Shown: in pieces, positions 592-15,458 of the stretch
How the letters are laid out: each line of letters begins with the position of its first letter
Position numbering within the stretch: the stretch's first letter is position 1
Assembly (NCBI GenBank): GCA_012798535.1
Contig: JAAZMZ010000050.1
Location: 1 to 64,000 of the forward strand
Reading direction: 5' to 3'
Length of the DNA stretch: 64,000 bases
Origin: Leptolinea sp.
Lineage (GTDB): Bacteria > Chloroflexota > Anaerolineae > Anaerolineales > Anaerolineaceae
The notes under the pieces: model-generated
Databases searched by the model: none
The model's input: only the letters and a program-made list of their open reading frames with translations
Told to the model about the DNA's origin: nothing
Made by a program: the position numbers and the translations under genes

Positions 592-1164
592 ATGTTTCCG
601 TTGAACTACAATCCACGCATGCTGGACAGCGAGCCAATGATACGCTGCCAATTACACGAATGCCAGGCTGCATGCTGTCTTTATGGTGTCTGGATTGATT
701 GGGCGGAAGCGCAAAAGATAAAGCAATTCGCCGCGTTGATCATACCGGAGATGCTAATCGACTGGCGGGATCCGAATACCTGGTTCGACGGACGTCAAGA
801 CCTGGACAGGCACGCCCCTACCGGGAAGGTGATTCACAGCCGGGTGGTGGAAAATCCAAGACACTATGGCGGATCAGCCTGCGTATTTCTGCGTGGCGAT
901 CATAAATGTGCCCTGCAGACGGCAGCATTACGCTCCGGCAGGCACCCGTGGGATTTCAAACCGTTCTATTGCATCCTGCATCCCCTGGATCTGGATGAAA
1001 ACGGCCGGATCACACTGGATGAGACCGGCCTTCTTCTGGATGAACCCGGCTCTTGCCTGCGGCCATCTAAAATCAAGATACCTCTGGCGGTCACATTCGA
1101 ACCGGAACTGCGGTATTTATTAGGAGAGGAAGCCTACCAGAAACTAATGTTACTCGTGACGTAG
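592..1164 (+). CDS. DUF3109-like cysteine-cluster protein
   Basis: A 190-residue cytoplasmic protein with no signal peptide. The cysteines are arranged as in DUF3109/YkgJ-type metal-binding proteins: CQLHECQAACC near residues 19-29, then a C-x8-C pair (ACVFLRGDHKCALQ), then FKPFYCILHP and GSCLRP. Families with this pattern are thought to hold a zinc or iron-sulfur centre, but their function is not known. The last 15 bases overlap convergently with the end of the ABC permease gene on the other strand. No good ribosome site precedes the ATG at 592, so a start a few codons away is possible. The DUF3109 assignment rests on motif resemblance only. Confidence 0.5.
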   Translation: MFPLNYNPRMLDSEPMIRCQLHECQAACCLYGVWIDWAEAQKIKQFAALIIPEMLIDWRDPNTWFDGRQDLDRHAPTGKVIHSRVVENPRHYGGSACVFLRGDHKCALQTAALRSGRHPWDFKPFYCILHPLDLDENGRITLDETGLLLDEPGSCLRPSKIKIPLAVTFEPELRYLLGEEAYQKLMLLVT

Positions 1165-2376
1165 AGCCTCGACCGGCTGTAAACCGGCTGCCCGATTGGC
1201 CGGATAAATTCCGAAGAATAACCCGACGGCCGTCGAGAAAATGGTGGCCAGAAGAATGGCGTTCATACCTACCACAGGTGTGAAAACCGTGCCCGAAGCG
1301 GCGGCAACTTTTTCTACAATGAACGCGATCAACCAGCCCAGACCGATTCCGATGATTCCACCGAAAAGGCTCAGGAGCGAGGATTCGACAAGGAACTGGA
1401 TCAAAATATCCGATTTCTTTGCGCCCAGTGCTTTCCGCAGACCGATCTCACGGGTGCGTTCTGTGACCGATACCAGCATGATGTTCATGATCCCGATACC
1501 ACCAACCAGCAGTGATATAGCCGCAATGCCACCCAGGAAGATGGTCAACACATTAGTGATGGAACTGACCATACTCACCGCGGATTGCTGGGAGATTACC
1601 TGAAAATCGTCTTCCCCGGCGCGGGTGCGGTGCCGGGTACGCAGAATGTTAGATATTTCTTCCGTTGCCTGATTGACCGTCTCGGCGGAGGCAGCCTGCA
1701 CAACGATCATATCCACTGAATTGCGGGTACGGCGGATCATGCGGGCCTGTGCGGTAGTCAACGGGATCATAATCAGGTCATCCTGGCTGCCAAATGCCCC
1801 ACCGCCTTTCGGTTTCAAAACGCCGACAATACGGAATGGTTGTCCTTCAATGCGGATAGTCTCTCCAACCAGCGCTTCCCGCCGGTTGAACAATTTATCG
1901 GCCACATCCACACCGATCACTGCCACGGATGCCTGTCCTAATAAATGTTCTTCGGTGATTCCTGAACCTTCAAGGTATTCATAATTGCTGATCTTGATAT
2001 AACCGGGCGTAACGCCATCTACCGACGTGGATTTCTTTTCTTTCGCATAAGTGACCTGAAGCCGGTTGGAAAGAACCGGTTCCGATACCAGAACAGAAGG
2101 CGCCAGTGTGTCATCTTTCAATGCGGCAGCATCCAGCATAGTGAGCGGTTTGATATTGCGAATCTCAGCCTGCTGATTTCCGCTGGCCACAAAGATCAAA
2201 TTGGTCCCCAATCCGCTGATGGTGCTCGTGATGTAGGTTTGAGCGCCTTCGCCGATGGCCAGCATGGCGATAACCGCCGCCACACCGATGACAATTCCAA
2301 GAATCGTCAGACCGGAACGGAGTTTATTGGCACTTAATGTTTCCATTGCCTCGAGAAATGACTCTGCAATATTCAT
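1150..2376 (-). CDS. MacB/FtsX-type ABC transporter permease
   Basis: A 408-residue membrane subunit of a type VII (MacB/LolC-like) ABC transporter. One membrane segment lies near residues 20-45, followed by an extracytoplasmic MacB_PCD-type domain of roughly 230 residues, then three membrane segments in the last 125 residues (starting around TIFLGGIAAISLLVGGIGIMN shortened: GGIGIMNIMLVSVTERTREI is the family's signature cytoplasmic loop with the TERTREIGLRKALGA motif). It is the last gene of a five-gene minus-strand operon and its ATG overlaps the ATPase stop by one base (TGATG). Such permeases move lipoproteins, peptides or antimicrobial compounds mechanically with an adaptor protein. The substrate cannot be read from sequence. 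Confidence 0.88.
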   Translation of the reverse strand: MNIAESFLEAMETLSANKLRSGLTILGIVIGVAAVIAMLAIGEGAQTYITSTISGLGTNLIFVASGNQQAEIRNIKPLTMLDAAALKDDTLAPSVLVSEPVLSNRLQVTYAKEKKSTSVDGVTPGYIKISNYEYLEGSGITEEHLLGQASVAVIGVDVADKLFNRREALVGETIRIEGQPFRIVGVLKPKGGGAFGSQDDLIMIPLTTAQARMIRRTRNSVDMIVVQAASAETVNQATEEISNILRTRHRTRAGEDDFQVISQQSAVSMVSSITNVLTIFLGGIAAISLLVGGIGIMNIMLVSVTERTREIGLRKALGAKKSDILIQFLVESSLLSLFGGIIGIGLGWLIAFIVEKVAAASGTVFTPVVGMNAILLATIFSTAVGLFFGIYPANRAAGLQPVEALRHE

Positions 2377-3053
2377 CAGCTCTCCACGATCAAACCATCT
2401 TTAACCCGGATAATGCGTTGGGTTTGATTGCCAACCGCGGAATCATGGGTCACAATGATCACAGTCACGCCATCTTCACGGTTAAGTTTCAACAACAGAT
2501 CCATGATCTCTTTCCCTGATTTTGAATCCAGGTTTCCTGTTGGTTCGTCTGCCATAATAATGGCAGGGTTGTTCACCAAAGCCCGGGCAATCGCCACGCG
2601 TTGTTGTTGACCACCCGAAAGCTCGAATGGTTTATGATGTAAGCGGTTACCCAGTCCCACTATATCCAGGGCTTTTCTTGCCATATCAGCCCGCTCCGAG
2701 CCCACTCCGGCATATCTTAATGGCAGTTCCACATTAGTCATAGCCGTCGCACGCGACAGGAGATTGAAACTTTGAAAAATGAAACCAACTTTGCGGTTGC
2801 GGATCAATGCTAATTGATCATCATTTAGATCGGAGACTTTCTCTCCGTCCAGAAAATAATCACCATCCGTCGGGCGGTCCAGACAACCAAGGATATTCAT
2901 CAAGGTGGATTTCCCGGAACCGGAAGGTCCCATGATCGCCACAATTTCTCCACGATCTACCGTGATGGAAACGCCGTTCAGGGCGCGCACTTCCACTTCA
3001 CCCATCTGATATATCTTGGTGATTTCCTCAGTAAGAATTACATGATCGGCCAT
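2376..3053 (-). CDS. MacB/LolD-type ABC transporter ATPase
   Basis: A 225-residue nucleotide-binding subunit that powers the adjoining FtsX-type permease. Walker A (GPSGSGKST), the Q-loop region (FIFQSFNLLSRATAMTNVELP, family-typical), the signature LSGGQQQRVAIARAL and Walker B (IIMADEPTGNLD) are all intact. The phrase PTGNLDSKSGKEIMDLL is characteristic of the MacB/LolD/FtsE group. It sits between the second adaptor gene (22 bases upstream) and the permease (one-base overlap), so the three proteins are very likely made together as one exporter. Confidence 0.92.
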   Translation of the reverse strand: MADHVILTEEITKIYQMGEVEVRALNGVSITVDRGEIVAIMGPSGSGKSTLMNILGCLDRPTDGDYFLDGEKVSDLNDDQLALIRNRKVGFIFQSFNLLSRATAMTNVELPLRYAGVGSERADMARKALDIVGLGNRLHHKPFELSGGQQQRVAIARALVNNPAIIMADEPTGNLDSKSGKEIMDLLLKLNREDGVTVIIVTHDSAVGNQTQRIIRVKDGLIVES

Positions 3054-3075: not shown

Positions 3076-4476
3076 TCAGTCCACGAACATATTCATGGTG
3101 GGCGGATTGAGAATGATCAAGTCACCTTCTTTCACATCACCGGAAATGATCTGGCTGGTCGTATCAGAGCTGGCGCCAATGGTGATATCCACGGGCATTG
3201 GCATATTGTTTTTCAGCACATATACTACCCGTTTTCCTTCTTTCATCCGGACACAGCTATTGGGAACAACCAGAATGTCGTCTATCTGATTCACCACAAT
3301 ATTGATGGCGGAGGTCATTCCCGGTTTAACACTGGCATCCGCGTCTGAGATTTCGACAGTCACGGTGAAGTTCACCACACCCTGTACGGCAGTGCCGACA
3401 CTACCGACTTCGGTTACAACTGCGTTGTAAGTTTTCTCCGGGATGGCATCAAATGTCATGGTGGCTTTTTGTCCAACCTTAATGGAATTGATATCCACTT
3501 CCGTAATCTCGACATCTGCGTAGAGATGTGAAAGGTCATCGATCCGGAAGCCGGTAGTCGTCATGGATACCTGGTCACCAACCTTGGATTTGACATCCGT
3601 AATCGTACCGGCAAAAGGCGCTTCAATGTAGGCCATTTTCAGTGTGGCCTCAGTGGCTGCCACTTTAGCTTTGGCTGCCGCGATATCTTCGGGATCGGCT
3701 CCGGCTTTCAGACGATCATATTCGCGCTGCGCGTCTTTGACTTTCGATTCGGCTAGCGCTAGATTGGCGTCGATCTCCGCCTGTTCCAGTTCATCGGGAT
3801 AACTCTTGGCATAGTTGTAGTTTGCCAGGGCGGTTTCGATTTTTTGTTGGGCAGCAGAGTATTTGGCTGTGGCCGCCGCTCTGATGGGATTATCTTCCGC
3901 CATATACCGCGTCCCATCATAATCGGATTTTAGATCTTCCAATTCTTCCTTCGCCAGGACGTAATTGGCATAGGCCGAATCGATGACACTCTGATCCGCT
4001 TTGGTGAATTTTTTGCTCTCCCGTTTTTCTTTGGCATCATCCAGGTTTTTCAAGGCAACGGCTAACGCCTGTTCGGCCTGGGAGGTCGACAGGCTGGATT
4101 TCTCAAGGTTTTCCAAATTGCGTTTGGCTGTAACCAGTTCTGCCTGCGCCAGTATGATTTGTTGTGAAAGTGATGTCTGTGCCAGTTCTGCCAGGCGGGT
4201 ATTTTTAGTGACAAGATCACCGACTTTCACGAAAATTGAATCAACCGTTCCTGTCGTCTGCCAGTTAAGGACGGCGGTCTGTTTCGCGCGGACAGTTCCT
4301 GTTGCCCCGACAGTAGCCGTTAGAGAACCACGTGCTAGCGGTTCGGTCTTGTACATGGAATTGGCGGTTGTCTGGGTTTTCTGTACTTGCCTAATAACAA
4401 GAAATGCTCCTGCCAGTAGCAATACAAAAACAACAGGAATCCAGATTTTTTTATGAGAAAAGAACTTCTTGAGCAT
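3076..4476 (-). CDS. HlyD/MacA-family membrane fusion (adaptor) protein
   Basis: A 466-residue adaptor anchored by one N-terminal membrane segment (about residues 12-29). It shows the usual order: a split lipoyl-like half (VGDLVTKNTRLAELAQTSL), a long alpha-helical hairpin rich in A, E, K and Q (about 110-280), the second lipoyl half (IEAPFAGTITDVKSKVGDQV), then beta-barrel and membrane-proximal domains. It has an excellent ribosome site, AAGGAGG, overlapping the stop codon of the upstream sortase-fusion gene. In MacAB systems the adaptor stimulates the ATPase and receives substrate outside the membrane. No TolC-like partner is encoded nearby, as expected for a single-membrane cell. Confidence 0.87.
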   Translation of the reverse strand: MLKKFFSHKKIWIPVVFVLLLAGAFLVIRQVQKTQTTANSMYKTEPLARGSLTATVGATGTVRAKQTAVLNWQTTGTVDSIFVKVGDLVTKNTRLAELAQTSLSQQIILAQAELVTAKRNLENLEKSSLSTSQAEQALAVALKNLDDAKEKRESKKFTKADQSVIDSAYANYVLAKEELEDLKSDYDGTRYMAEDNPIRAAATAKYSAAQQKIETALANYNYAKSYPDELEQAEIDANLALAESKVKDAQREYDRLKAGADPEDIAAAKAKVAATEATLKMAYIEAPFAGTITDVKSKVGDQVSMTTTGFRIDDLSHLYADVEITEVDINSIKVGQKATMTFDAIPEKTYNAVVTEVGSVGTAVQGVVNFTVTVEISDADASVKPGMTSAINIVVNQIDDILVVPNSCVRMKEGKRVVYVLKNNMPMPVDITIGASSDTTSQIISGDVKEGDLIILNPPTMNMFVD

Positions 4477-4486
4477 TGCTGCCTCC

Positions 4487-6484
4487 TTAACTTTCCGGAA
4501 TGACTTCTACCAGCGCCGCGCGGATCACTGTCCGCCATAAATATTCCCCGCTGGCTTCATCAAACCCCTGACAGGTGATCAATGTGATCCAGCTTCCTTC
4601 TTCATGGCGAAAAGCGCTGCGGTCATCCGGTGTGACGCGTTCGACGGAGCGAACACGGTATATATATGAATTTCCCCAGGCATGGATTTCGATGGGGTCG
4701 TCAAATTTCAGGCTGGATAGATTGGCAAAGGGCCCGGGTTTCCCGTTGGGAAGAGAGACATGAGCTGTGATCACTGAGTTGCCATCATACGTGGGAAAAG
4801 CAGTTCCCTGCAGATACCCGGCCTGATTCCATAACCAGGTCAAATCCCATCCTTTATTGCTGGGGAGCACTCCGACCACATCTGTTTGAACACGCAAGTT
4901 CGGAATCGACAGACGAATTCCGTTCATGTCCTGGTACTGTCGTTCTATGGGTTGTGGTTTTATGGCAGTTATCCGATTTGGTGCGAACCCGGTAGCCGGC
5001 ATGAAGAAATTACCGTCCACCTTCCATATCTCCGCTCCGATTTTTCCATCCGTTGCACTGAAGAAAAGAGTTCTATCAATCGCAGCAAAACTATGCGGAT
5101 TCGATGTCCGCCAACCACTGTACAGATCTGCCACGCGGATGGTGGTGTATTCTTCATATGGTGGTTCGCTCATATAAAGTTCCCGTCCATAGACGCCGTC
5201 ATCTGCGGTGAAGAAAAGTGTGGTACCGATCGCTGTCAATTGCCGGGGATCAGAAGCTCCCTTTCCTTCGCTGATGTCTGCAACAATGTTTGTGTGGTCG
5301 GCATCATAGGGAGGGACGCTTTTCCATAATTCTGTCCCGGCGATTCCCTCATTGGCGGTAAAGAAGAGAGTGGTGCCAACCGCTGTCAGATTGCGTGGAT
5401 TGGAACTTCCAAAACCGTCAAAGATATCATCCACAATGAATGTAGAGGTTGGCTCGTAGGGCGGCTTTGAGATGTATAACTCATTTCCGCTATAACCGAT
5501 ATTCCCTGAAAAGAACACATAGGAACCGATAGCGGTGATCCAATCCGGCTGAGTGTCATTGATGGTATAGATGAGCAGGTTCTCCGGTGGATCGCCGATG
5601 ATATCTGTCACCCGCACGGCTCCGCCGTAGGGCGGTTCCAGTTTATACAGTTCATGCCCCGATTCGCCATCATTGGCAGAAAAGAAAATCGTGTTATCCA
5701 CGAGGGTTAGATCATATACTTCCGCATCGCCATTTTTGGCGATATTCGTGCATTTAATGGCTGTCCCCGGGGTGTATTCCGGATCGCTTCGCCAGATTTC
5801 TGTTCCGGTGGAATCACCGGCGATATAGAACAGCATCCAGCCCAGACGGGTTAATTCGCGTGGATTTGATCCGTGGGCGCCCGGCCAGATATCAGCAACC
5901 AGATCAATGGACTGATAGGGAGGAGACGTGCGGAAAATCTCGCGGCCGTGCTGTCCATCATCTGCCGTGAAGAAAACAGCATTGCCGATCATCACAAAAT
6001 TGGCCGGATCAGAATCCCCGTTCTCGTTCAGATCGGCGACACGGCGGGTGGAAGAGGCGTTGTAAGGTGGTTCAGAAACCCACAATTCAATGCCGGCGTC
6101 ATCTTTTGCGCTGAAAAAGACCAGATTTCCAAATCCTTTGATGTATTTGACATCCGAACTGAGATAACCAGGGTTGATATCCTTTACCAGTTCGGCCTTT
6201 GTATAAGGGGAAGGAAGTTTCCAGAGCTCGCGGCCGTAATTCCCATCCACGGCGCTGAAGAACAGGGTAGTGCCAACAAAGGTGAGGTATTCCGGTGAAG
6301 AGCTGCTGGAGCCTTTCCAGAGATCTATCACATTCGCCGGAGGAGTGTCGCTATCCTTTACCATCGGCGGAGCTGCCGTGACGGTGTTCGCGGGTATGAA
6401 GGATGCCAGCAGCATTAACAGCACTAAATTGCAGAAGAGTCGTTTCTTCAGGGCAATGCGGGGTAATCTGATCATCTGTCTCAT
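4487..6484 (-). CDS. Secreted ELW-repeat protein with C-terminal sortase domain
   Basis: A 665-residue protein with a signal peptide (hydrophobic residues 18-30, likely cleavage after VTAA near 38). Residues 55-490 hold nine imperfect repeats of about 48 residues; the conserved core reads like GTTLFFTADDGVYGRELY followed by SEPPY, resembling the ELWxxDGT propeller-type repeats. After the repeats comes MPATG (495-499) and then a sortase fold (about 505-662) with the expected triad: His575 in TAHVSLPNG, Cys638 in TLITC and Arg651, the same Cys-to-Arg spacing of 13 as SrtA (C184-R197). There is no C-terminal membrane anchor. It lies between two adaptor genes; its ATGA start overlaps the upstream stop by four bases, so it is translated as part of the exporter operon. 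Sortase assignment is firm on motifs; the role of the repeats is unknown. Confidence 0.78.
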   Translation of the reverse strand: MRQMIRLPRIALKKRLFCNLVLLMLLASFIPANTVTAAPPMVKDSDTPPANVIDLWKGSSSSSPEYLTFVGTTLFFSAVDGNYGRELWKLPSPYTKAELVKDINPGYLSSDVKYIKGFGNLVFFSAKDDAGIELWVSEPPYNASSTRRVADLNENGDSDPANFVMIGNAVFFTADDGQHGREIFRTSPPYQSIDLVADIWPGAHGSNPRELTRLGWMLFYIAGDSTGTEIWRSDPEYTPGTAIKCTNIAKNGDAEVYDLTLVDNTIFFSANDGESGHELYKLEPPYGGAVRVTDIIGDPPENLLIYTINDTQPDWITAIGSYVFFSGNIGYSGNELYISKPPYEPTSTFIVDDIFDGFGSSNPRNLTAVGTTLFFTANEGIAGTELWKSVPPYDADHTNIVADISEGKGASDPRQLTAIGTTLFFTADDGVYGRELYMSEPPYEEYTTIRVADLYSGWRTSNPHSFAAIDRTLFFSATDGKIGAEIWKVDGNFFMPATGFAPNRITAIKPQPIERQYQDMNGIRLSIPNLRVQTDVVGVLPSNKGWDLTWLWNQAGYLQGTAFPTYDGNSVITAHVSLPNGKPGPFANLSSLKFDDPIEIHAWGNSYIYRVRSVERVTPDDRSAFRHEEGSWITLITCQGFDEASGEYLWRTVIRAALVEVIPES

Positions 6485-7887
6485 TTTCCCGCGCCCTGAG
6501 ATGCCATTACCTGGGGATTGGTCACCAGCGCATCGCCTTCATGCAGATCACCGGATTTCAATTCACTATACATATCTGATATTAAACCAAGTTCCACCGG
6601 TATTTGTTGGACTTTATTTTCACGAAAAACGTATACTGAGTATTCTTTCTTTTTGGCCTGTAATGCGCTATTGGGAATAAGGATGACATTTTCCACCTTT
6701 TCCACCTCGATGGATGAGGCGGCTGTCATTCCCGGTTTGATGGAAGCATCTGGATCCGTGATTTCGCAGGTTACTGTGTAGTAGATATTATCCTGATCAT
6801 CCTGGTTGATCTTACCGATCTCTGAAACAACTCCCTCGAAGGACTTTCCCGGTATGGCATCAAAAGAGAAAGTGACTGCCTTACCCGGTTTGATTTTGTT
6901 GATATCCACTTCTGAGACCGAAATATCCAGGAACATGTGTGAAGAATCGATCAGAGTGAGAGCTTTATCTCCCGATTTGACAACGTCGCCTTCAAGCAAT
7001 CGTGAATCGATGACGGTTGCTGCGATCGGTGCCGTAATTCTGGTGAGGTTGATCTGTGCCTGCAGGGCATCCACATTGGATTGTGCGGCGGCCAGATCGT
7101 CAGGATCGGGTTTATTTTTTACCCTGTCCCAATTTCTCCGTGCATCTGCCAGCTTCGATTCAGCCACTTTTAATTCTGTATCCGCGATCTTGATGTCTTC
7201 AGGTAAAGGTTTATTTTGTGCATACTGGAAATTCCACAGCGCCCAATCGTAATTCTTTCTGGCAAGGGAAAGCTGGGCGGTGATCTGCGCTCTGTTTACA
7301 TCATCTTCCGGTTGATCCTGGACAAAGGCAAAAACCTCTTCCATTTTTTTCAGGTTAGATTTTGCCTGAAGATAGGATGCTTCTGCCGCCATGAGATTTG
7401 TATCGCTGGCATTGCGTTGATTCATCAATTCCCGTTTGTCCCGGGCTTTATCAACCTCGATCTCGGCTTTTGCCAGGTCTTCTTTGGCCTGAGTACGCTT
7501 TTGATCTGAAATATTTAGATCATTTAGGGCTCTCTGTGCAGCAGGCAGTTCTTCAATGGCCTGCAAAATCGAAGATTCCAGTGAAGTCTGGTCCAATTCC
7601 ACAAGCACGTCACCGGCTTTAACCGTATCATTATTCTTGACGTGAATGTTGCCTATGATTCCTCCGGTCATCCAGTTGAGTGTGACAAGCTGGTTTGGCC
7701 GCACCTTGCCTGTGGATCCGACCCGAGTGGTCAATGTACCCCGGGTGACCGGGGTTGTGGTCACACCCTCGGGAAGCGGCGATCGAGAAGATTGACGATA
7801 CTTGTTAACAAAAAAAATACCGCCGGCAACAAGCAGCAAAAGTAGAAGAACGATGTAAACGCCAACCTTTAGTCTTTTTGATTTCAC
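6481..7887 (-). CDS. HlyD/MacA-family adaptor protein (first gene of operon)
   Basis: A 468-residue adaptor with a GTG start, an N-terminal membrane anchor (about residues 8-28), a lipoyl half (VKNNDTVKAGDVLVELDQTS), a long helical hairpin (about 105-275), the second lipoyl half (RITAPIAATVIDSRLLEGDV) and a C-terminal beta-barrel region with PGMTAASSIEVE. It is a clear paralogue of the other adaptor in the same operon, sharing the LNWMTGGI/LNWQTTGT and EVDINKIKPGK/EVDINSIKVGQ segments. It is the first gene of the operon and overlaps the sortase-fusion gene by four bases. Having two adaptors for one ATPase and one permease is unusual; they may form a mixed ring or serve different steps. Confidence 0.85.
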   Translation of the reverse strand: MKSKRLKVGVYIVLLLLLLVAGGIFFVNKYRQSSRSPLPEGVTTTPVTRGTLTTRVGSTGKVRPNQLVTLNWMTGGIIGNIHVKNNDTVKAGDVLVELDQTSLESSILQAIEELPAAQRALNDLNISDQKRTQAKEDLAKAEIEVDKARDKRELMNQRNASDTNLMAAEASYLQAKSNLKKMEEVFAFVQDQPEDDVNRAQITAQLSLARKNYDWALWNFQYAQNKPLPEDIKIADTELKVAESKLADARRNWDRVKNKPDPDDLAAAQSNVDALQAQINLTRITAPIAATVIDSRLLEGDVVKSGDKALTLIDSSHMFLDISVSEVDINKIKPGKAVTFSFDAIPGKSFEGVVSEIGKINQDDQDNIYYTVTCEITDPDASIKPGMTAASSIEVEKVENVILIPNSALQAKKKEYSVYVFRENKVQQIPVELGLISDMYSELKSGDLHEGDALVTNPQVMASQGAGK

Positions 7888-11327: not shown

Positions 11328-14300
11328 TTATTGCGATCGTAAGGCTGCTTTCAGGCGTCCCCATAGTTTGATCAATGCGGTGAGCAATGGGATCAAACCC
11401 GCTCCGCACACCAGTGGAAGGGGTGAAAAGGGCGCTTCCTGATCATATTTCAGACTGTAGATGGAATGCGTTCCGGCCAGTTGATCATTGGCAGCCCGAG
11501 CGCGGATTATGTAGGTGGCGCTGGATTCCGGAGTGAAAAAGAGGGTTGTCTCAGACATCAAATCATCTGGAACGGCTTCGTCTGTCATAGCCTTTCCTGT
11601 CAAATCGTAAATTTGCAGGGTGACGCCGGCGGCCAGCTCCGTCGGTTGGGCGGAGAAGACATACGGTTTTCCTCCCTGCAAGAGCATGACGCTCCAATCT
11701 TCATCTTTCAATCCGCAAAGGTTGTGCAATTGACCGCTGCCTGACTCTAGTGGAGTGGCTTCAGACGGCAGGTTATCTTTCGTTTCATATTTATCCGGCA
11801 CACAGGCATTTTCGATGATCGTTTTTACCTGCGCTTCTGCCGGAAATTCCTCGCTGCTGTTCGAAGTCACCGCCCGGATGCGGAAACCGTAAGCTGCGGC
11901 ATTCGCTCCGAAGAAACTGGCTTCGCGTAGATCCCCCGGCAGTGTTTCAGCCCAGGGCTGCCAGTCACTGCCGTTGACCTGATATTGGAGTTCAAAATGA
12001 TCAACCTTTTCATTTGAAATGGTTGCCCATTTAAGATTGACCAGCGTGCTTCCGTTTTCAGCCGACAGCGCATCCATGTGGGTGACCGGTGTGCTGCTAT
12101 TGCCGGAAAGAAGAACTACCTGGCTGTTGGCTGTGTTACCTGCCTGATCATAAGCCCGGGCGAAAACAGCAGCACCGGCCAGGTTACCGGCGTAGTCTGC
12201 CGGAATGCTTCCCGTCCAGCCGTCTGCGGCAGTTTCATCCAGCGCTACCTGTTCCGCCTTTTCCATTGATACACCGGCCGGCTGAACATAAAACTCAACC
12301 CGGCTGACCGGATCATTTCCATCCGATGCGTTTGCGGCGAGTTCAATGGGCAGAGACACGTTCCCCATGGTGCCCGCAGGTTTGGTCAATGTGATCATCG
12401 GTGGGGTTGTATCCTGGATCAATGATAGCCGGTAGTCGACGGCAGGATTCGAAACCCTGGAAGAAGGATCAGCTTCGATTTTCAGGAAATACGTTCCGGC
12501 TTGCGGCAGACTGGCGTTCAATTGAACAGAATTGCCGGATGCTTTTCCTGCGGCCAGAACGGTGGTACCGTCTGAAGAGAGCAGGGTGAGAGCGGGTTTC
12601 CAATCTGTGAGGGCTGACAGCTTACTGACAGCCGCGTTGAAGGATCGCGCTTCCGCCGTAGTGAAGCGGAAGAAGTCGATATCTCCGATTGGGCAGATTT
12701 GATTGTCGCTGCTGCCGGCCAGAGTCGTCTCGCGGGCTTTTTCCGCAGAACCATCATCCGCCGCTTCCGAGCAGACTCTGGTGGGATCGTCACTGATGCG
12801 GACAGCCGTTATCGCCCAACCCAGACCTTTGTTGTAGAGGGCATCCAGTGTATCGAAATGGAACCGGATGCGAATTTTCTTGCCAACATAGGTCGAAAGA
12901 TCAATGGGAGTCGACTCAACTGGTGTTGTACTACCGGGTTTGGCGGTGATCTGAGATACATCCTGGAAAGGCCCGCCATCGATTGAGATCTGCACCAGGC
13001 GAAGATCCCAGATAGCGCCACCTGATTCGGTGGATGTGGCATATCGGAAGGAAAGCTGTTGACCGGCGTATCCAATTGAAATTGGTGGAGAAGTCAGATC
13101 GCCGGATGCGGTTGAATTCTCTTTGCTGTATTCCGAATCGGTACCGAATATCCAGCCGGTCAAACTGTCTGTGCCGGATTTAAATCCTCCACGTTTCCAC
13201 AGGCCGGTGGATTTCCAACCTGTGGCATCTGTTTTGAAATCAGCCTCATACGGCGCGGTGATGGGACCGGTTGTATCAACAACTCCAGCCTTGACTGTGA
13301 ATGTACCGGTTGAGGTTTTCTCTCCGGCGCTGTTCCGGGCTGTCACTGACCAGGAATACGCTCCGGGTTTCAGGGTGCCCGGCGAATATGAAACGCCTCC
13401 CTGCCAGTCTTGAACAGCCTGATACCCATCCGGGCCTTTGACTTCGGCGTGGTAATCCATTGCGCCGCCAGCCGGCTGCCAGCTCAAGACCACCGAATCA
13501 TCGGCGGTCAAAGTGGCTCCGTCCGGTCCGGAAACTGTATTCAATTGAGGCGCGGCAGGCGCCGGCAAGACTCCCATAATCTTAATGGAAGATGTCCTGT
13601 TCGCGCCGATGATCAAACCATCCAAATTTTCTGCGGATGCCGTCAGCGACTGGCTGCGACCGGTGAAGTTTGGTTCATCAAAGAGTATGGCGCTCACCCC
13701 GCTGCCCAGTTGGATGGATTCCAGACTGTTGTCTCCAAAGGTGGTGAGGGTATTGAGGTCGGAATACTCACCAATATTGATCACCTCGCAATACCCCTGA
13801 TACGCCGGACTGTTGTACAATGCGGCCTGGTTTTCCGCCGGTGAACAGGCGGGCGGCATAATGGGGCAGGTGAATTTTTTATTAATGGATACTTCGGCCA
13901 CCGGTGTTGTGGTGCGGTTGCCGCCGTTATCCCAGATGTTCAAACCAATGGAAAGTGGTCCATCGGGAACACCGGCCGCGCACAGATCCAGATCTTCGAT
14001 GAAAGCCTCTGTCGTGATGGGCGCGCTGGCCGGCCGCCAGGTTCCATCATATTTAACCATGGGTTGAATTTTTGCTACACCAGATTCGTCCGATCCATAC
14101 CCGCTGATTTCGACTTTCGCGGAGGTCACCAGAGTATTGGAGGCAGGTGAATTTAGAATGCCGGTCGGCGGTGTGGAATCTCCATTGTTGGAGGTGTACT
14201 TATCATTCGGCATACACTGCGTACCGTAAGCCGGAAATGCTTTGGATTCCGAACAGGTGCGTGGACGCCCGCCGTTGACGGTTACATCATCAAAAACAAT

Positions 14301-15251
14301 ATCGACAGAATTTCCCCAGTAAGTGGTGGCATTGGTATGGACGTGGAAATGCAAATGCGGACCAGAACTGTAACCGGTATTATCCACGTTACCGATGAAT
14401 TGACCCTGATTGACCCAGGCGCCTCTTACCCGCAGCGCTTCGGGAATGGAGTTTTGCGATAGATGAAAGTAAACCTGATATGTGACGGGAGATGTCGAAT
14501 CGTCTTCAAGAACGATATAGTTCGCATTTTCATGGTTATTATCCGGGTACTTCCAGACGGCATATTTTACCCGGCCTGCTTTGGCCGCCATGATGGCGAA
14601 ATTCCCTCCGTCCGCAAAATCAAAAGCATACATACAGGATGACGGGCAAGATTTGTAGGTCAGAACATGTCCGATGCTCCCGGTGAGGAATTTGGTTGTT
14701 CCTTTCTTCCAGGGCAGACGGTAACCACGCAGAGGAGCGATATCTTTGGCAATCGCCTGGGGAGCGGACATGTATTGCTGTTTTATCTCATCATCGATCA
14801 TGGATGCCGGAATTTGTGCAAGAAGGGCGTTAAACCCGTCATCTGCCTGAACGGTCACACCCCAGGAATTATCCGACTGACGTTGAGCGATAGCCAATCC
14901 GGGTTCGGCTGGAACAAGGGTATCCGTGTCTTTATCATATAAGGCCAGCCAGAGCAGGGCTGTATTCTTGTCTTCGCTGTAGTTTACGTGTGTTATACCC
15001 ACCCGGTATATTAAATATGACAACACTTCCGTATGACGGTTTATCGCAACCTGTAAAGCTTGTTCCAACTGCGCGGTGGCCATATCCTTTGGCTGTGCAT
15101 ACTTCGGAAAAACCTGCGAGGCGTCTCTTTCTATATAAAGAACCTGATAAGCCAGATAAGCTGTACCAGCCGCCAGAATGAAAAAGACCGCCACAATGGT
15201 GGGAATTACCCAGCGCGGAAAACGCGAATCGTGATGATCAGTCTGTCTCAT
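11328..15251 (-). CDS. Large multidomain surface protein with LytM/M23 peptidase domain
   Basis: A protein of about 1307 residues with an N-terminal membrane anchor (about 13-35) and a hydrophobic C-terminal segment (about 1280-1297). An M23/LytM-type domain spans about 170-320, with GPHLHFHVH supplying His299, His301 and His303; the conserved upstream region AFDFADGG is visible. Further domains, judged by pattern: an Ig-like region (about 350-460), a beta/gamma-crystallin-like region (PAYQGYCEVINIGEY with LFDEPNFTGRSQSL), FN3-like (about 570-660), a concanavalin/jelly-roll-like region (about 680-840), a pre-peptidase C-terminal (PPC) domain (about 850-960), another Ig/FN3 pair, and a second PPC-like domain (about 1165-1270). 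M23 enzymes cut peptidoglycan cross-links or glycine-rich peptides. Start: ATG at 15251; a GTG three codons upstream is possible. Confidence 0.8.
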   Translation of the reverse strand: MRQTDHHDSRFPRWVIPTIVAVFFILAAGTAYLAYQVLYIERDASQVFPKYAQPKDMATAQLEQALQVAINRHTEVLSYLIYRVGITHVNYSEDKNTALLWLALYDKDTDTLVPAEPGLAIAQRQSDNSWGVTVQADDGFNALLAQIPASMIDDEIKQQYMSAPQAIAKDIAPLRGYRLPWKKGTTKFLTGSIGHVLTYKSCPSSCMYAFDFADGGNFAIMAAKAGRVKYAVWKYPDNNHENANYIVLEDDSTSPVTYQVYFHLSQNSIPEALRVRGAWVNQGQFIGNVDNTGYSSGPHLHFHVHTNATTYWGNSVDIVFDDVTVNGGRPRTCSESKAFPAYGTQCMPNDKYTSNNGDSTPPTGILNSPASNTLVTSAKVEISGYGSDESGVAKIQPMVKYDGTWRPASAPITTEAFIEDLDLCAAGVPDGPLSIGLNIWDNGGNRTTTPVAEVSINKKFTCPIMPPACSPAENQAALYNSPAYQGYCEVINIGEYSDLNTLTTFGDNSLESIQLGSGVSAILFDEPNFTGRSQSLTASAENLDGLIIGANRTSSIKIMGVLPAPAAPQLNTVSGPDGATLTADDSVVLSWQPAGGAMDYHAEVKGPDGYQAVQDWQGGVSYSPGTLKPGAYSWSVTARNSAGEKTSTGTFTVKAGVVDTTGPITAPYEADFKTDATGWKSTGLWKRGGFKSGTDSLTGWIFGTDSEYSKENSTASGDLTSPPISIGYAGQQLSFRYATSTESGGAIWDLRLVQISIDGGPFQDVSQITAKPGSTTPVESTPIDLSTYVGKKIRIRFHFDTLDALYNKGLGWAITAVRISDDPTRVCSEAADDGSAEKARETTLAGSSDNQICPIGDIDFFRFTTAEARSFNAAVSKLSALTDWKPALTLLSSDGTTVLAAGKASGNSVQLNASLPQAGTYFLKIEADPSSRVSNPAVDYRLSLIQDTTPPMITLTKPAGTMGNVSLPIELAANASDGNDPVSRVEFYVQPAGVSMEKAEQVALDETAADGWTGSIPADYAGNLAGAAVFARAYDQAGNTANSQVVLLSGNSSTPVTHMDALSAENGSTLVNLKWATISNEKVDHFELQYQVNGSDWQPWAETLPGDLREASFFGANAAAYGFRIRAVTSNSSEEFPAEAQVKTIIENACVPDKYETKDNLPSEATPLESGSGQLHNLCGLKDEDWSVMLLQGGKPYVFSAQPTELAAGVTLQIYDLTGKAMTDEAVPDDLMSETTLFFTPESSATYIIRARAANDQLAGTHSIYSLKYDQEAPFSPLPLVCGAGLIPLLTALIKLWGRLKAALRSQ

Positions 15252-15458
15252 AATTGGCACCGTTCAAAGACTAAGTATCTCCAGGTCGGGTGCAATTACC
15301 AGGCCAGCACATTTGTCCTCCGGATATATCTCCTGAATTTATTTATGACAAATTAACCCCAAATATTTCACGTTTGTACTATTATTTTTTATTAAACAAT
15401 AGAGAACCGCACCCTATTCAGGAAGCTGCACCAAACTAATGGGGAAGAAGAGGTAAAT

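Follow-up and report, generated by a model that had tools for sequence, protein, structure and literature searches.

Sortase domains fused behind their own sorting-signal-like motif in proteins of Anaerolineales

The window analysed here, a 64,000-nucleotide stretch of Leptolinea sp. DNA from a contig belonging to a 3.5 Mb assembly, encodes a protein in which repeats, the sorting-signal-like motif MPATGF and a sortase domain follow one another in a single chain. Relatives share this architecture, with the motif co-conserved with the catalytic triad and a C-terminal hydrophobic segment nearly absent. We consider it probable, at about 60%, that these proteins are natural enzyme-plus-substrate chains, each cutting its own Thr-Gly bond and passing its ectodomain to a nucleophile on the cell surface.

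The open reading frame lies on the minus strand, the plus-strand frame being closed across the same stretch (Table 1). The initial annotation had read it as a signal peptide, nine ELW-type repeats, MPATG at residues 495-499 and a sortase with His575, Cys638 and Arg651, and all of these parts were recovered. The signal peptide is borne out by a hydrophobic stretch at residues 14-39 with an AxA-type site. The ELWxxDGT repeat profile TIGR04534 (NCBIfam) was passed with 252.8 bits against a cut-off of 65, and nine cores of the form xGxE[LI][WFY] start at residues 83, 130, 179, 226, 275, 332, 382, 432 and 482, spaced by 47-57 residues. MPATG is the single occurrence of [LIMVN]PxT[GA] in the chain. 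The region behind it matches the Pfam sortase family PF04203 over residues 525-659 (E 2.8e-19; 69.6 bits against a cut-off of 26.6) and passes the NCBIfam sortase profile TIGR01076 (40.4 bits against 39.35). By profile, triad and fold the protein is a sortase, for which transpeptidase activity is predicted. None of the NCBIfam cut-offs for sortase classes C, D, E, F and GN (140-166) was reached, the best class score being 48.5 bits in the window protein and 59.7 bits among ten relatives. A full-length structure model resolves the repeats into nine groups of ~3-4 strands each, and propeller proteins are among its best Foldseek matches, with low TM-scores; the ectodomain is probably a beta-propeller.

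Table 1. The ELW-repeat sortase gene, its parts and its neighbours, in window coordinates
Feature	Position	Strand	Basis
ELWxxDGT repeats + MPATGF + sortase, whole gene, 665 aa	4487..6484	-	ORF, Pfam, NCBIfam
Signal peptide, residues ~1-38	6371..6484	-	Hydrophobic stretch 14-39; AxA-type site by direct reading
Ectodomain, nine ELW-type repeats, residues ~50-490	5015..6337	-	TIGR04534, nine cores, nine strand groups, propeller matches
MPATGF, residues 495-500, sorting-signal-like motif within the chain	4985..5002	-	Conserved in 122 relatives
Linker, residues 501-523, family consensus APGxVTxLPxQPxxxxY	4916..4984	-	Column conservation; pLDDT 92 in 497-506
Sortase domain, residues ~524-663	4496..4915	-	PF04203 at 525-659; sortase folds Z 15-17.6
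Catalytic His575	4760..4762	-	Kept in 122/122
Catalytic Cys638	4571..4573	-	Kept in 122/122
Catalytic Arg651	4532..4534	-	Kept in 117/122
HlyD-type adaptor gene, overlaps ORF start	6481..7887	-	Pfam; synteny in Leptolinea-type genomes
Second HlyD-type adaptor gene	3076..4476	-	Pfam; synteny
MacB-type ABC ATPase	2376..3053	-	Pfam, NCBIfam; synteny
MacB-type permease	1150..2376	-	Pfam, NCBIfam; synteny

Conservation of the motif was assessed in 122 non-redundant relatives with a mean pairwise identity of 46%. Pro496 is kept in 117 of these, Gly499 and Phe500 in 120 each, and position 498 is Thr in 113, Ser in seven and Ala in one. Residue 497, the x of the motif, and the residues upstream of it vary. 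Most relatives carry [LI]PxTG where the window protein has MPATG. An initial set of 52 sequences gave the same picture: Thr498, Gly499 and Phe500 were invariant, Pro496 was present in 51 and the first position was Leu, Ile or Met in 50. The motif positions are thus about as conserved as the catalytic residues (Table 1) while their surroundings vary, and so, although a single motif could be chance, its conservation across the alignment is not. Indeed, [LI]PxTG occurs just 20 times in the remaining 171,317 residues of the relatives' chains. The initial annotation had asked whether the motif is conserved alongside the sortase; nearly all homologues whose sortase is intact retain it. The linker that follows is conserved as well, and the distance from the motif Thr to the catalytic Cys is near-constant (137-147 residues, mode 140). 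As read from these columns, motif and linker have the pattern of a sortase substrate with a conserved connection to its own domain. A motif as constant as the triad, with x free and Ser for Thr in seven, argues for self-sorting, as do the linker and the fixed spacing. One locus (L226:1901-2581, minus strand) carries motif and linker in tandem duplicate (LPSTGFRHGEVTQLPKQPAAPSLPSTGFRHGEVTQLPKQPAAKAY), either a real duplication or an assembly error.

Exceptions to the motif are few. Ser replaces Thr in L192, L163 and L196, for example, and L115 has the motif, with His in the Arg column and an Arg adjoining. In L168, L164 and L180 the motif's place is taken by ILVSGGFGF or a similar sequence and the catalytic Arg is lost, whereas L083, a sister of this lineage, has ILDTGF and retains the Arg. 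This joint decay of motif and catalytic Arg, which covers one or two lineages, is suggestive and speaks for self-sorting. L182 points the other way, having LPQAGF and yet an intact triad. We considered L113 and L114, the latter without motif and without Arg, as motif-less members and rejected both; L113 resembles a gene fragment and L114 a copy in decay. A distant 901-aa sortase fusion (L116:9125-11830, genome G176) has IPDTGY at about the motif's place.

The fusion is widespread in one group of bacteria. Among 396 genomes of the class, ~50 proteins align through the motif, nearly all with the same domain order, in reading frames of ~400 to 3,900 aa, some of them cut by contig ends. Searching the genomes of 84,980 species turned up 303 loci that encode relatives; of the 78 retained, nearly all are labelled Chloroflexota, one metagenome bin being labelled otherwise. 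The closest named relative of the C-terminal region is from Leptolinea tardivitalis (83% identity). Within Anaerolineales, matches at E up to 1e-20 are present in 128 of 201 genomes; the weaker of these matches may be other sortases, and about 100 genomes have one at E under 1e-40. The motif-bearing family forms one group in the tree with moderate support. Short matches were inspected as candidate stand-alone sortases bearing the motif and set aside: most are cut by contig ends, and the rest are short ORFs with an unclear start, so that no clear case emerged among those fetched.

Within the Anaerolineales sample the motif-sortase tail is often present in several copies per genome and sits on unrelated ectodomains that differ completely from one another (ELW repeats, DUF11 and related stalk domains, an ice-binding domain). 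An N-terminal hydrophobic segment was found in 60 of 71 complete members and a hydrophobic segment within the last 230 residues in just one. Judged from these sequences, the place of the usual hydrophobic tail is taken by the sortase domain. Both the recurrence of one tail on unrelated ectodomains and this distribution of hydrophobic segments favour self-sorting.

The gene itself is flanked by two HlyD-type genes, followed by the MacB-type ATPase and permease. The same order occurs in two Leptolinea genomes, and a third contig has the HlyD genes and ends before MacAB; near the ELW-sortase genes in Levilinea and other genomes the order was not found. With the linkage kept in Leptolinea-type genomes and not found near those other genes, we set aside a functional connection with the MacAB/HlyD operon, which is unlikely to explain the fusion. 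Elsewhere in the window (11328-15260, minus strand) lies a gene for a 1,310-aa protein that combines an M23 peptidase domain with Ig-like and PPC domains and has a hydrophobic segment at its C-terminus; it contains no LPXTG.

We modelled the C-terminal module (residues 487-665) with AlphaFold from an alignment of 78 sequences, obtaining a mean pLDDT of 93.2 and a pTM of 0.89. Block 497-506 is coil in this model, yet has an average pLDDT of 92. The model superimposes on solved sortases with Z-scores of 15-17.6. Alignments with class A and E sortases mostly begin at model residue 23-34, whereas those with class C sortases begin at model residue 1 (SrtC1 chain residues 36-37) and include the lid region; B. 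anthracis SrtA, which has an N-terminal extension, also aligns from model residue 3. The SrtC1 lid comprises residues 44-55 (PMC3166054), and an ungapped alignment over this stretch, which we assume, would put the motif (model residues 9-14) close to SrtC1 45-50. Placement of the motif segment where class C sortases align from the lid region on argues for self-sorting and, indirectly, against a fold in which Cys638 is buried away from the motif. The full-length model leaves residues 492-521 unplaced, which counts against self-sorting; this is probably because its alignment was shallow, with only eight rows.

The same superposition also fits a different role for the segment. LPxTGF could occupy the active site as a substrate-like lid, in the manner of the class C DP(W/F/Y) lid, and be displaced uncut by the real substrate. 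The SrtC1 lid lies at a similar distance ahead of the first strand (PMC3166054), class C enzymes align from residue 1 where lidless ones mostly start at 28-34, and the conservation of Phe500 and the linker extends past the pentapeptide. This last feature exceeds an ordinary sorting signal and would suit a lid too, and so weighs against self-sorting. But a precise sorting signal in which x is free and the scissile Thr-Gly is intact would be superfluous in a lid, the class C counterpart is DP(W/F/Y), and the short matches gave no clear stand-alone enzyme of the family bearing the motif. We regard a lid as the leading alternative, albeit an unlikely one.

The motif might instead be an ordinary sorting signal read by a separate membrane sortase, the fused domain doing something else. 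The window genome does encode such an enzyme, L001, with an N-terminal membrane segment, together with an ordinary LPETG protein (L203:979-1614, contig C93; 211 aa) that ends in LPETG, a hydrophobic segment and a basic tail and is the likely substrate of L001. L203 was the genuine case among the matches to the LPXTG-anchor profile TIGR01167 read in this genome and in G311, which are mostly membrane tails without LPXTG. Many stand-alone membrane sortases of the class (L001, L008, L012-L017, L020-L033) share a conserved LP[SG]GHxPP in the stretch that joins membrane anchor and sortase domain.

Genome G311 (97% complete) serves as a natural control. With matches admitted up to E 10, the genome still yields one sortase only, a 560-aa protein (L195:439-2118, the same protein in G311 as L077) in which an ice-binding domain (PF11999) and a Thr/Pro-rich linker are followed by LPETGF and the sortase; the best LPXTG-anchor match in the genome is a membrane tail without the motif. 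Unless another sortase lies in the missing 3%, the G311 motif, if processed, would be cut by its own kind, and a motif-bearing fusion as the only sortase argues for self-sorting. Moreover, a conserved linker into the fused domain is unexpected for a signal read in trans, and the protein lacks the hydrophobic tail by which ordinary signals are presented. Reading by a separate enzyme is accordingly quite improbable. Still more doubtful is a purely structural segment whose likeness to LPXTG has no function, which would fit its confident placement on the domain and a conserved stretch longer than the motif, but not the sortase-substrate pattern of fixed P, T/S, G and F around a free x, the Ser for Thr in seven or the loss of the motif together with the Arg in one lineage.

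Self-sorting would proceed as follows. The protein would be exported via Sec, and its C-terminal domain would be an active sortase. The LPxTGF-like segment ~140 residues before the catalytic Cys would serve as an internal sorting signal that the conserved linker holds along the enzyme and that, we infer, docks near the active site. Cys638, in the same chain or in a neighbouring copy, would attack the Thr498 carbonyl, releasing the sortase domain from Gly499 onward, and the resulting ectodomain-Thr acyl intermediate would be transferred to a cell-surface amine or to water. In a published sortase-substrate complex, the Ala208 CB is 3.2-3.4 A away from the Thr carbonyl C (PMC9520033). The sortase domain would thereby take the role that a hydrophobic, positively charged tail plays in ordinary LPXTG proteins. 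More generally, Anaerolineales may use, instead of the hydrophobic sorting tail, a sortase domain that acts once and is then discarded, each surface protein having an enzyme and a signal of its own and anchoring or releasing itself without a separate membrane sortase; we rate this at even odds. If the chain does cut itself, giant surface proteins may be attached with neither membrane sortase nor hydrophobic tail in a large group of bacteria that has received little study. The presence of the tail in about half or more of the sampled Anaerolineales genomes opens protein anchoring in Chloroflexota to direct testing, and the family offers new sortases with their substrates built in. We found no published account of a natural sortase fusion with an internal LPXTG, of Chloroflexi sortases or of LPXTG in Anaerolineae in a search that did not extend to most subscription journals and bioRxiv.

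The window protein resembles several known systems in part. With LPXTG cell-wall-anchored proteins (TIGR01167) it shares a signal peptide, a large ectodomain and an LPxTG-like motif near the C-terminus; those proteins end in a hydrophobic and basic tail, whereas here a sortase domain follows, and for want of the tail it is not an ordinary member of that group. Its ectodomain belongs with the ELWxxDGT repeat proteins (TIGR04534), the repeats being fused here to motif and sortase. The giant C-terminal sortase fusions of other Anaerolineae (L118-L122; for example, L119:1378-13263), of up to ~4,460 aa, likewise combine a large ectodomain, a C-terminal sortase and an intact triad, but have no LPxTG before the sortase domain. 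Hence, fused sortases need not carry the motif, and these fusions from other orders count against self-sorting.

The class C pilin sortase SrtC1 has the sortase fold in common with the window protein, and the N-terminal segment of the latter aligns in its lid region. The natural class C lid motif is DP(W/F/Y) (PMC3166054), whereas the segment of the window family is [LIM]PxTGF. Class C pilin sortases are membrane enzymes without a large ectodomain, and the window protein scores 48.5 bits against the NCBIfam class C cut-off of 160. A SrtC1 lid mutant deliberately given IPNTG, a Cys-to-Ala mutant, had a disordered motif (PMC3166054), which again counts against self-sorting; this engineered protein is without the linker of the window family.

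The nearest parallel to self-sorting is man-made. In engineered SrtA-LPETG fusions (BISOP), sortase and target sequence are joined in one chain, as in the window protein, and the chain cleaves itself between Thr and Gly (PMC2901362), so that a single chain is able to do so. BISOP uses an S. aureus-type SrtA in the order sortase-LPETG-target, whereas the window protein has an unclassified sortase with a conserved linker in the order target-LPxTGF-sortase. Self-cleavage of the window protein would mean that the kind of single-chain sortase fusion employed in biotechnology for self-cleaving tags also arose in nature.
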